Positions 43,435 to 57,905 of a stretch of 64,000 nt of DNA are shown in pieces (positions within the stretch are counted from its first letter, which is position 1; each line of letters starts with the position of its first letter). This DNA comes from Marine Group I thaumarchaeote (GTDB taxonomy: Archaea; Thermoproteota; Nitrososphaeria; Nitrososphaerales; Nitrosopumilaceae). A program made the position numbers and the translations under genes. The notes under the pieces are model-generated. The model worked only from the letters and a program-made list of their open reading frames with translations. It did no database searches and was not told where the DNA came from. The stretch lies in contig JACATG010000001.1 in the NCBI GenBank assembly GCA_013390905.1, positions 1 to 64,000 on the forward strand, in the 5' to 3' direction.

Positions 43435-44280
43435 CTATCCGTACGATTCGTATTTGACTTCAAAACTTCCATCTTCACGTTTGTCATGTTCTGTGACAAA
43501 TCCCCTTGGTTTTAAAAAGTCCATTGCACCGTCTATTGTTCCCTGCCAACCACAAATATAGAATATTGTGTTATCTTTGGTGATTTCCTCACCGATTAAT
43601 TCTTCTAGTTGTGACCTGCCATTTTCCAAAGGTCTTAGGAATGTTTCAACCCTTCCAATTTGACCACCCCATGATCTGTTAAACCATTCTTGAGGTCTAC
43701 TGATTGCTGCTCTATACTTAAAGTTCCACTCTTCCTTGCCTCTAGCAATACTGTCATCTTCAAGCGAAGTTAGCAAATCTTTGTAACTTAACTCATCAAC
43801 GTAACTAGCACCCTGTAAAACTATAATCTCTCGTTTGTCTCCAGTATCATGAAAGTGCTGTGCAAAACTGACAAATGGTGCAAGACCAGTACCTCCTCCT
43901 ATACAAATAATTCTTCTGTTATCTTTTTCTCCATTTGGAAGTTCTTCATTAATCATTAGTGCTTTACCTGAAGGTTTTAACCAAAGAATCTCATCTCCTT
44001 CTTTTAGATTAAACAACTGTGTAGTTAATCTGCCAGGTAGTGGTTTCCTTACCCATCTAATTACAAGCTCAATGTAATCTGTATTTTCTGGATGAGATGC
44101 AATTGAATATGCTCGTCTAACAATCTTTCCACCTTGTAGAGGATTTGGCAATCCTAATGTAATAAATTGACCAGCTTGAAATTCTGGAACTAGAACATCT
44201 TTTGGAACTAATCTAATGATTACAAGATCCTCTTTTAGTAATTGAACATATGTGACAGTTGCTTTGTTATCTACCACCAT
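43435..44280 (-). CDS. Ferredoxin-NAD(P)+ reductase-like flavoprotein, copy 1
   Basis: This 281-residue FAD/NAD(P)-binding oxidoreductase has RRAYSIASHPEN (RxYS FAD motif), a pyrophosphate-binding loop near KPLPGRLTTQLF, the nucleotide-binding GGGTGLAPFVSFAQHF and the C-terminal YICGWQGTIDGAMDFL. It should pass electrons between a ferredoxin and NAD(P). A close paralogue lies at 54931; the three ferredoxins at 30-32 kb are candidate partners. Confidence 0.9.
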   Translation of the reverse strand: MVVDNKATVTYVQLLKEDLVIIRLVPKDVLVPEFQAGQFITLGLPNPLQGGKIVRRAYSIASHPENTDYIELVIRWVRKPLPGRLTTQLFNLKEGDEILWLKPSGKALMINEELPNGEKDNRRIICIGGGTGLAPFVSFAQHFHDTGDKREIIVLQGASYVDELSYKDLLTSLEDDSIARGKEEWNFKYRAAISRPQEWFNRSWGGQIGRVETFLRPLENGRSQLEELIGEEITKDNTIFYICGWQGTIDGAMDFLKPRGFVTEHDKREDGSFEVKYESYG

Positions 44281-52856: not shown

Positions 52857-53564
52857 ATGTCTGAGGAAAAAAAAGAATCTAAAGTAGAAGAAAAACCTAC
52901 AGAAGATTCATCATCAGAAAAGCCATCTACAGAAAAAACTACAAAAGCCAAGTCTACAAAAGATGCAAAAGTGGTAGTTGACGCAGCAGATAAAGCAGAT
53001 GCAGCAGCTAAAGCAGCTGAAAAAGCAGAAATTGCCCTACAAAAAGCTATTGAAAAAGCAGCAGCTGCAAAAGAAAAAGCAGAAGCTGCAGCAGAAGCAG
53101 AATACAAGGCAATTGCTGATGAAGTAAAACAAGACGCAGTAAAGGCCCCTACTCACACGTTCAAACGACAAGGTGAGGAAATCTTCAGACGAGAGATGGG
53201 CGAACCAGAATTTTGGTTAGATAAGAAAGACCGATTCCCACGACCAATCCTTTCAGCGGAAGAACAGGAATCTATTACAAGAAAAGCTGAGGAGTTCACA
53301 GATGTAACTCCTAATTATGTTCCTGAACATGTTCTTAGTCCTGAGTTTGGTGGCGTTTCAAATTATGAACACGCAGTTGATGAATTTTTAGAAGAAACAA
53401 GCCAAAGACTTGAAAAATTAAAAAATGATCCTGAATCTACTGAAAAACAAATCCAAAACGCGAAGAATGATATAATTTATTTAAACTCTTTACACGAAAA
53501 TTTTTTCATTGGAATGAATGTTTTCCGAACTGCAAAAGGTGGACGGGAGAAGATAAAATCTTAA
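52857..53564 (+). CDS. Acidic/Ala-rich helical protein with a conserved-looking C-terminal half
   Basis: About 235 residues from ATG 52857 (MSEEKKES). Residues 1-50 are Lys/Glu/Ser-rich and disordered, and 45-95 form an alanine-rich helix (DAADKADAAAKAAEKAE). The remaining 140 residues (THTFKRQGEEIFRREMGEPE to FIGMNVFRTAKGGRE) look like a folded domain that I do not recognise. It ends 10 bp before the HemA homologue, suggesting co-expression. Confidence 0.7.
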   Translation: MSEEKKESKVEEKPTEDSSSEKPSTEKTTKAKSTKDAKVVVDAADKADAAAKAAEKAEIALQKAIEKAAAAKEKAEAAAEAEYKAIADEVKQDAVKAPTHTFKRQGEEIFRREMGEPEFWLDKKDRFPRPILSAEEQESITRKAEEFTDVTPNYVPEHVLSPEFGGVSNYEHAVDEFLEETSQRLEKLKNDPESTEKQIQNAKNDIIYLNSLHENFFIGMNVFRTAKGGREKIKS

Positions 53565-53574
53565 TGGTGATGAT

Positions 53575-54651
53575 TTGAGTCACGTACATTTTGATGTAAT
53601 GAATGCCAGAGTCACTTTCAAAAATGTACCTCTACATGCATTATCAAAATTTACTTTTAAAGATGTAATTGCAGCATCTGAAGAATTCAAAAAAATTTCT
53701 GGTGTTGATGAATGTATCATTATTCAAACATCAAGTAGAGTTGAAATCTTTTTAGTAAGTAATGTTGAAACTTCTGATTCTCCTGATGCACGAAGACCTG
53801 AAGGAAGAACTCTTGTGTTAAACCAAATTAAAGATACTTGGATACCTCTGTCTTCATTGGACCAGAATGATATTGATCATTTTGATCAAACTCTCGAAGT
53901 ATACAAAGGTGATGATGTATACCTTCATCTATTACGTTTAGCATCTGGATTAGATTCTCCTGTTATAGGTAAACAAGAAATATTTGATGAGATTGTGCTG
54001 TCATTTGCTAAGGCAAAGAGTGCTGGCATCTCTGGTAAAATTCTCAATAAATTATTTGAAAGCGTAATTAGATTATCTCTCAGAATGAGAGATACCACTG
54101 GAATCGCAAAGGAAGTTATCTCTCTTGGTGATATTGCAATTAAACTAGTAGATGAGAAAGCAGGACTTGATGCCAAGAAAAAAGTCTTACTCATTGGTAC
54201 TGGTGAGCCTGCTGCTATGGTTGCAAAAGCTTTGAAGATAAAGGACATCAACTTCGATGTCACGAGTAGAACAATTGATCGTGCAATTGGATTTACAACA
54301 CTCTTGAGTGGAACTCCTGTTGACTTTAATGAGGTTTTGACTGGTTTTGATAAATATGATATTATCTTTGTTGCAACAACATGTGATTATTTCTTAATTA
54401 CCTATGATAGAATCCGATTGGTTATGGAAGAAAAGAAAAAAGGTACACTAATTTTAGATTTGTCAGATCCTAGAACTGTTGAAGAAGGAATTACTGCACT
54501 TCCTGGAATTAAATTATTGTTTAAAGATCAAATTTATGAAATTTATGAAGAAAGTGTTAAAGCTAGAATGAGTATTGTTCCTGCAGTTGAAAAAATTATT
54601 ACAAAAGAAGTTCCTATTTTATCTGCAACAATGAAAAGATTTGATGGTTAA
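53575..54651 (+). CDS. hemA: Glutamyl-tRNA reductase homologue lacking the catalytic Cys
   Basis: This 358-residue protein has the HemA plan: N-terminal catalytic domain, helical region with LRLASGLDSPVIGKQEIFDEI (canonical GLDSxVxGE) and a Rossmann domain VLLIGTGEPAAMVAKAL. HemA reduces glutamyl-tRNA for tetrapyrrole synthesis through a nucleophilic Cys in the motif TCNR. Here the motif is QTSSRVEIF, with Ser53 (codon TCA, 53731-53733) at the Cys position, and GE of the second motif is GK. It may be an altered paralogue; another hemA could exist elsewhere. TTG start. The C-terminal dimerisation region is short. Confidence 0.8.
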   Translation: MSHVHFDVMNARVTFKNVPLHALSKFTFKDVIAASEEFKKISGVDECIIIQTSSRVEIFLVSNVETSDSPDARRPEGRTLVLNQIKDTWIPLSSLDQNDIDHFDQTLEVYKGDDVYLHLLRLASGLDSPVIGKQEIFDEIVLSFAKAKSAGISGKILNKLFESVIRLSLRMRDTTGIAKEVISLGDIAIKLVDEKAGLDAKKKVLLIGTGEPAAMVAKALKIKDINFDVTSRTIDRAIGFTTLLSGTPVDFNEVLTGFDKYDIIFVATTCDYFLITYDRIRLVMEEKKKGTLILDLSDPRTVEEGITALPGIKLLFKDQIYEIYEESVKARMSIVPAVEKIITKEVPILSATMKRFDG

Positions 54652-54930: not shown

Positions 54931-55773
54931 CTATCCATAAGATTCAAACTTTATTCCAAAACTTCCATCAGGATTCTTTTCATGTTCAGTAACAAAACCT
55001 CTTGAACCAAGATATTCAATCACTCCATCAATAGTACCTTGATATCCACAAATGTATACGATTGTATTGTCTGGTGTAATTTCTTCTCCTACCATTTCAT
55101 CCACTGGTGATAATCCAGTTTTTTTATCAGGCTTGAAAAATGATTCTACTCTGCCTACCGGTCCAGACCAAGATCTGTTATAGTATTCTTTTGGTCTGCT
55201 GATTGCCGCTCTATATCTAAAGTTCCATTGATCACTTCCTCTTTTTTTACTTTCATCATCATAACCTGTCAAAAGTCGTCTGTAACTTAATTCATCAATA
55301 TAACTAGCTCCATGCAAAATAATCAATTCTCTTTTGTCATTAGTGTCATGGAAATGATGTGCAAATGCAATAAATGGCGCTAATCCTGTTCCACCACCAA
55401 CACAAATTACTCTTCTATTGTCTTTTTCTCCATTAGGTAACTTTTCGCTAATTCGTAATGCAGCTCCAGTAGGATATCCTAGTAATACTTCATCACCAAC
55501 ACTTAGATAAAATAATTCAGTTGTAACACGACCTGGAAGTGGTTTTCTTACCCATCTAATTACAAATTCAAAATAATCTCTATTCCCTGCATGTGATGCA
55601 AGTGAATATGCTCTTCTAACTATCTTTTTTTCAGCTGGTATTGGAAGACCCATTGTTAGAAATTGACCAGTTCTGTAATTTGGCACTCCAGTTTCTGGAA
55701 CTACTCGCATAATTACAAGATCTTCTTTTATCATTTCCATATAGGTGACCTTTGCCTTCATCTCTAATACCAT
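54931..55773 (-). CDS. Ferredoxin-NAD(P)+ reductase-like flavoprotein, copy 2
   Basis: This 280-residue paralogue of the protein at 43435 has RRAYSLASHAGN, RKPLPGRVTTELF, GGGTGLAPFIAFAHHF and YICGYQGTIDGVIEYL. The differences are concentrated in the FAD-adenine and substrate loops (GYPTGAAL for KPSGKAL), suggesting different electron partners. It is the second FAD/NAD(P) reductase of this type in the window. Confidence 0.9.
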   Translation of the reverse strand: MVLEMKAKVTYMEMIKEDLVIMRVVPETGVPNYRTGQFLTMGLPIPAEKKIVRRAYSLASHAGNRDYFEFVIRWVRKPLPGRVTTELFYLSVGDEVLLGYPTGAALRISEKLPNGEKDNRRVICVGGGTGLAPFIAFAHHFHDTNDKRELIILHGASYIDELSYRRLLTGYDDESKKRGSDQWNFRYRAAISRPKEYYNRSWSGPVGRVESFFKPDKKTGLSPVDEMVGEEITPDNTIVYICGYQGTIDGVIEYLGSRGFVTEHEKNPDGSFGIKFESYG

Positions 55774-56789: not shown

Positions 56790-57905
56790 GTGAGTGGTAA
56801 GGATCAATCTGTTGTAAGTAAAGAAGCTTTGATGAGCACAAAATCTGGAAAACAAATATTGAAACAAGGTTTGTTCAAATCGAAAGGCTACAAATTATTT
56901 AAAAAATACAAGGAAGAAACAGAAAAAGAATTTCCTAACTTTGCAGAAAGATTTGCACAGGGTCTTCTAAATGAAATAAAATCAGATACCAACCCAAATT
57001 CTACTCAGCAAGCATTCGGTGACGAAGTAGGTTCTACTGAAATAATACTAAATGCATCTGAAATTGAGCCTATCAAATCAAAATTAGAACGCCTTGATGT
57101 ACTAAGAGATAGAGTGCTTCGAATTTTAAATTCAAATTTCGTAAAAATGACCTTTCCTGTTTTTAATGCGTTATTTGATGGTGCAGCAGAATATGCTGGA
57201 AGAAATGATCCTCAATTAAAACAGAATGTAGTTGAGGGACATATCTTAGCAATTGATCTAAGTGAACCAATGGATAGAATCGTAGATAAAGATGAAGATT
57301 TGGAATTTCTTGATGATTATAAACTAATGAATCCATACATCTTGAAATTAGCCCGAGATAAAATTTCAAAGGGTGGTGAACAAGTTCTAAAAGAATTTGA
57401 AGATGGATTCAAGGATGCTAGAATAGGACAGTATCTTGATGAGAAATTAAAATCAAAACCAACTGAAATTACTGAAGAAGAAATGACATTGTCTTACAAA
57501 AAATATCGAGCAGTTATGGGAACTGCTGGTAGAAACATGGCTTTAGCAGAAAGACCATTGGGTGAAATTTTCTATTTAGGCATGGCAAGAGCTGCAGAAG
57601 GTGTTGGATGTGGAAACGAAATTGAAGACTCTATTAAAAATGGATTTATAAAAATACCTTCTTGGCCACTTTACTATTCATTACTAGCAAATGATGTGAA
57701 AAAAGGATTTGAAGTCACTTTAGAAAAAAGTAATCTGTATTTACAAGATGCTCGCCTTACTCTTGAAATGTTACCTGAGGAATTTTCTCACAAAGAATTT
57801 TTAGAATTTTTGTTTTTGACTGTAGAACATTATAATCAATACTGGTACAATCAATTACTAAAGGCCAATAAATGGTCAGAGTTTGAATCTAAACTTCCAA
57901 AGTGA
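56790..57905 (+). CDS. Unknown protein coupled to RfcL
   Basis: This 371-residue protein starts at GTG (56790) with a basic N-terminus (SKEALMSTKSGKQILKQGLF) and then is almost entirely charged and helical, without a known motif. A Cys-containing VGCGNEIEDSIKNG segment sits near residue 275 and a Tyr/Trp-rich HYNQYWYNQLLKANKW near the end. Its stop overlaps the GTG at 57902 of the RfcL frame by 4 nt, so it belongs to the clamp-loader transcript. Confidence 0.75.
   Translation: MSGKDQSVVSKEALMSTKSGKQILKQGLFKSKGYKLFKKYKEETEKEFPNFAERFAQGLLNEIKSDTNPNSTQQAFGDEVGSTEIILNASEIEPIKSKLERLDVLRDRVLRILNSNFVKMTFPVFNALFDGAAEYAGRNDPQLKQNVVEGHILAIDLSEPMDRIVDKDEDLEFLDDYKLMNPYILKLARDKISKGGEQVLKEFEDGFKDARIGQYLDEKLKSKPTEITEEEMTLSYKKYRAVMGTAGRNMALAERPLGEIFYLGMARAAEGVGCGNEIEDSIKNGFIKIPSWPLYYSLLANDVKKGFEVTLEKSNLYLQDARLTLEMLPEEFSHKEFLEFLFLTVEHYNQYWYNQLLKANKWSEFESKLPK

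Follow-up and report, generated by a model that had tools for sequence, protein, structure and literature searches.

The hemA-like gene at positions 53575 to 54651 of the window, by which we mean the whole 64,000-nucleotide stretch of Marine Group I thaumarchaeote DNA analysed here, is probably a repurposed, Cys-less paralogue of glutamyl-tRNA reductase (GluTR, HemA) rather than a HemA that uses Ser. Our best reading is that it belongs to a three-gene redox or regulatory module and encodes a GluTR-derived protein that probably binds NADP(H). We put at roughly one half the probability that this is a neofunctionalised GluTR paralogue that does not reduce Glu-tRNA and would instead work together with FNR-A, the product of a gene downstream of it, in a non-covalent and NADP(H)-linked way, as either an enzyme or a sensor. 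The features concerned are as follows.

52857..53564, + strand: ORF236, a coiled-coil protein of 235 amino acids, whose end lies 10 bases upstream of the HemA-like start
53566..53571, + strand: Shine-Dalgarno-like GGTGAT, inside the 10-base gap between the end of ORF236 and the TTG start
53575..54651, + strand: GluTR (HemA)-like paralogue, TTG start, 358 amino acids, Ser53, Lys133, no dimerisation domain
54931..55773, - strand: FNR-A, a ferredoxin-NADP-reductase-type paralogue (FAD/NAD-binding), downstream of the HemA-like gene
43438..44280, - strand: FNR-B, the general FNR copy, 65% identical to FNR-A, outside the module and included for comparison

The HemA-like copy is confirmed as a full-length frame encoding a GluTR homologue. 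The preliminary description of this DNA had pointed to Ser in place of the catalytic Cys, and the 358-residue frame does read that way: Ser53, encoded by TCA, lies in QTSSRVEIF where canonical HemA has QTCNR. It had also pointed to Lys where Glu is usual in the second motif, and Lys133 indeed falls within SGLDSPVIGKQEI, with GKQEI in place of GEEQI. Its further statement, that the frame is full length and the rest of the fold intact, holds for the frame but not for the fold. Both the GlutR_N domain (Pfam, E 6.7e-26) and the nucleotide-binding domain (Shikimate_DH, E 2.9e-18) were found, whereas the C-terminal GlutR_dimer domain, present in the canonical HemA of the same genome, is absent from the window copy by Pfam. 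The closest known system is GluTR itself (HemA, GtrR; PF05201, PF01488 and PF00745; TIGR01035; PDB 1gpj, 4n7r and 5yjl), with which the paralogue shares the N-terminal GlutR_N domain, the spinal helix, the NADPH-type Rossmann domain, and Arg55, Glu57 and Ser128. The AF2 model (mean pLDDT 88) has the M. kandleri GluTR 1gpj as its top PDB match, at 26% identity in the fold alignment. The paralogue differs from GluTR in being without the catalytic Cys, Asn, Glu114 and Gln116 and, in Nitrosopumilus, without the dimerisation domain, in having motifs of its own, and in its TIGR01035 (NCBIfam) score of 181.5 bits, below the cut-off of 209.55, against 328.2 for the canonical copy. The spacing of GGTGA upstream of the start is similar in most orthologues.

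That the window gene might be the only hemA of the organism is ruled out by a canonical copy in the same genome (1.23 Mb, 98.5% complete). This second GluTR, at G000:C11:213183-213614, has 423 amino acids, QTCNR, GEEQI and all three domains, and is the TCNR-bearing hemA for which the preliminary description had suggested a search. It adjoins a precorrin-2-dehydrogenase-like ORF, and the paralogue is not near it; as had been remarked before, no known tetrapyrrole gene is present among the ORFs listed on both sides of the window copy. Across 400 sampled genomes of the class, the window's genus and several other genera of its family carry two GluTR copies as a rule, and outside the family there is one copy among the matches listed, with one exception (G276). 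When the window protein was searched against 250 family genomes, whose named relatives include Nitrosopumilus, Nitrosarchaeum and Nitrosopelagicus, both copies were found in nearly all genomes of the window's genus, and no case of the paralogue without the canonical copy was seen among family genomes at least 96% complete. A survey of archaeal haem synthesis gives a single HemA for N. maritimus, Nmar_0510 (PMC3004389), and a full-text literature search found, within the collection searched, no paper describing the Cys-less paralogue.

Judged from the aligned orthologues, none of the residues retained in the paralogue clade could form the thioester. Across the 124 distinct orthologues that have a residue in this alignment column, the Cys position is occupied by Ala (84), Ser (28), Gln (5), Thr (3), Gly (3) or His (1) and never by Cys; it has changed at least 17 times on a tree, and Ala is also found in the two nearest relatives, which are 93-94% identical. 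What is fixed across the whole orthologous clade is the absence of Cys and not Ser specifically, and a strain-specific mutation is excluded. Neither of the outcomes foreseen in the preliminary description therefore applies, the gene being neither a sole, Ser-bearing hemA nor a mutation confined to one strain. Its suggestion that Ser is a genuine alternative nucleophile fails for the same residue counts, and the Ala majority refutes Ser as a clade-wide nucleophile. An active glutamyl-tRNA reductase using Ser53 is highly improbable: the window copy does have Ser, and the fold, the Rossmann domain and Arg55/Glu57 are retained, but Ala or another residue replaces Ser in most orthologues, a canonical hemA is present and Glu114 is lost. 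In the M. kandleri enzyme it is Cys48 that forms the thioester (PMC3778395). The PDB chain of that solved GluTR, 1gpj_A, reads QTSNR, with Ser at position 48, which shows that the GluTR fold can accommodate a Cys-to-Ser change. We take this Ser48 to be, possibly, a deliberate mutation of the Cys.

Beyond the Cys position, the paralogue keeps 31 of the 67 sites whose conservation in canonical HemA is 95% or higher, and those retained at 95% or more include T14, Q51, R55, E57, S128, G208, G210, R236, S297, P299 and R300. The losses comprise the Cys, Asn53, Glu114 and Gln116 (canonical numbering), among others. At the GEEQI position the orthologues have Lys, Trp, Arg, Asn or His for Glu114 and Glu, Ser or Thr for Gln116; as M. 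kandleri GluTR itself reads GEQE, only the Glu of this motif is strict. Other residues have been gained and fixed (P70, D71, R73, L80, D99, D101, H102, D104, Q105, Y110, D271 and F316), and the paralogue-specific invariants form the motifs P70-D71-x-R73 and D99/D101-H102-x-D104-Q105, together with D271, which stands where canonical HemA has an almost invariant Pro. The dimerisation domain is missing in Nitrosopumilus and several genera and kept in the longer orthologues of other genera.

In the nucleotide loop the GxG and the second Arg are kept, so that the predicted binding of a dinucleotide is plausible; where the 2'-phosphate loop has its first Arg, 34 of 56 sequences keep Arg and the remainder have Met, Lys or Gln. 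Of the two new roles proposed earlier, nucleotide binding gains from this, and tRNA binding is disfavoured by a catalytic domain more acidic than that of canonical HemA, its net charge per 100 amino acids being -2.3 against 0.0. We consider it improbable that the protein simply binds tRNA or a nucleotide with no redox role. Descent from a tRNA-dependent enzyme and the presence of a Rossmann domain would suit such a protein, but the acidic charge, the replacement of Glu114, Gln116 and Asn53, and an FNR paralogue as its partner all argue against it.

The paralogue is under purifying selection. Its median pairwise dN/dS is 0.137, against 0.075 for hemA, values which indicate a working gene on which constraint is somewhat relaxed, and its frames are open and free of stops among the genomes listed. 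The earlier judgement that this is not a simple pseudogene is borne out by the dN/dS of about 0.14 and by conservation in the clade; these, with the canonical TCNR hemA in the same genome, likewise uphold its view of a paralogue with a probable new role. A decaying duplicate or pseudogene would account for the missing catalytic residues and the one missing domain, and the frame of G161 is apparently interrupted, possibly through assembly; however, the low dN/dS, the stop-free frames and the invariant novel sites leave this explanation with hardly any probability, and purifying selection refutes it. The paralogue clade arose within Nitrosopumilaceae: all 27 paralogue rows fall in one clade (support 100/100) nested among Nitrosopumilaceae HemA, where it branches beside the canonical HemA of G159 (L103, a g9 species) with support of 100/99. 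The exact sister of the clade is unsure, given the long branches flagged in the tree. As a sister, the G159 HemA may mark the donor lineage or reflect a long-branch effect. At locus L092 of G161 (1477-2975) the paralogue occupies two overlapping frames, the result of a frameshift or an assembly error.

What is new here is that ORF236 lies directly before the paralogue and that the paralogue usually lies beside an FNR-A of its own clade. We counted co-occurrence in family genomes at least 95% complete and outside the window's genus, the kinship of these genomes weakening the count as a test: the 29 genomes that carry the paralogue all possess the long ORF236 together with two or more FNR matches; the long ORF236 is absent from every one of the 31 genomes lacking the paralogue, 29 of which have no more than one FNR match. 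One exceptional FNR match, that of G025, which lacks the paralogue, is a short weak scrap, and the second FNR match of G241 is just 40% identical. Within genus g2, all three genes are found in G003, G083, G091 and G140 and none of them in G025, G028, G056 and G071. The site of the block varies: some genera have it after rfcL, others have it between argH and IMPase, and in g2 and in G159/G322 it lies elsewhere again. Joint presence and absence, combined with different chromosomal sites, points to the paralogue, ORF236 and FNR-A forming a unit. They are not strictly one operon, since FNR-A is convergent with the gene pair in Nitrosopumilus, co-oriented in some genera and divergent in G159/G322, and is not adjacent to the pair in G083. 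The window block follows tRNA-Asp(GTC); we rejected a link to the neighbouring tRNA genes, as the tRNA-Lys/tRNA-Asp pair stays by argH or IMPase where the block is elsewhere, and the proximity looks like one of position only.

ORF236 directly precedes the paralogue in 57 of the 57 loci in which both genes are readable, across many genera (L091 being an incomplete locus in this comparison). Its conserved motifs are IFRREMGEPEF and GMNVFRTAKGGR. No Pfam family matches it above its cut-off, comparison with the PDB gave weak matches only (DivIVA, E 0.027), and the AF2 model is poor (pLDDT 66). A short homologue of its C-terminus, 70-150 amino acids long, occurs in families of ammonia-oxidising archaea (AOA), including genomes without the paralogue, and adjoins rfcL in most of the loci seen. 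The AOA-wide form beside rfcL, given as 70-110 amino acids, and ORF236 have the C-terminal region FENY..GMNVFRxAxGGR in common, whereas ORF236 adds the coiled-coil N-terminus and IFRREMGEPEF and is found with the GluTR-like gene. This short AOA-wide protein (L145-L154, L133-L141), ending in GMNVFRxAxGGR, is the probable parent of ORF236. The window also contains, at 56790-57905 (+), an ORF of 371 amino acids for which Pfam gave nothing even at E 1; in many Nitrosopumilaceae loci it stands immediately before rfcL and is strongly conserved.

FNR-A has FAD_binding_6 and NAD_binding_1 domains above the Pfam cut-off, and its flavin and nucleotide motifs, RxYS and GGGTG, look intact, as in FNR-B. 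It shares these domains and motifs with the ferredoxin-NADP reductase family (1a8p, 2qdx) and differs from it in forming a clade of its own, the duplication being found in those lineages that have the GluTR-like gene. The FNRs near the paralogue make up that one clade (95/82), which includes the non-adjacent G083 copy and stands apart from FNR-B, a type that occurs also in genomes without the HemA-like gene. In G153 and G159 (L242, L252) the FNR-A type alone was found, near the paralogue, with no general FNR-B, and there FNR-A may have assumed the general role.

The main rival to our favoured reading is a pseudoenzyme that regulates tetrapyrrole synthesis by binding HemA, HemL (GSA aminomutase) or Glu-tRNA, thereby setting the supply of ALA. 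In plants, GluTR-binding proteins act in this way. The GluTR fold is the same, the Arg and Glu of glutamate recognition are retained, activity is lost while the fold is kept, and a canonical hemA is always present too in near-complete genomes. Against this, the dimerisation domain needed for hetero-dimers has been lost in Nitrosopumilus and several genera, the paralogue is not near canonical hemA, its co-inheritance is with the FNR paralogue instead, its catalytic domain is more acidic than that of HemA, and its new conserved motifs are absent from HemA. We consider such a regulator unlikely.

The sequences show that the thioester chemistry has been lost, the glutamate pocket partly replaced (Cys, Asn, Glu114 and Gln116), the nucleotide-binding Rossmann domain retained and new invariant motifs acquired, and that the gene is passed on as a block with ORF236 and FNR-A. 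In the reading that we favour, a non-covalent NADP(H)-linked partner of FNR-A, the Rossmann domain would bind NADP(H). The retained Arg55, Glu57 and Ser128 may hold a small ligand resembling a carboxylate or an amino acid. We suggest that the GluTR-like protein works with FNR-A, which would interconvert NADPH and a reduced carrier, and that the two probably act jointly on or through the helical protein ORF236. The GluTR-like protein could then be either a non-covalent NADPH-dependent dehydrogenase or a sensor of the NADPH state for FNR-A. More tentatively, and at odds that we put somewhat below even, the three duplicated genes may encode a new complex, restricted to Nitrosopumilaceae, for NADP(H)-linked redox chemistry or sensing, in which the GluTR fold has a new active site (PDxR, DxDHxDQ and D271) and acts on a new substrate.

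Automated annotation would be prone to label these paralogue genes hemA. The co-inherited FNR paralogue and coiled-coil protein are testable partners. Nitrosopumilaceae are among the most abundant archaea of the sea, and in a conserved GluTR lineage that lacks the Cys and has invariant motifs of its own, the GluTR fold would have moved out of tetrapyrrole synthesis.
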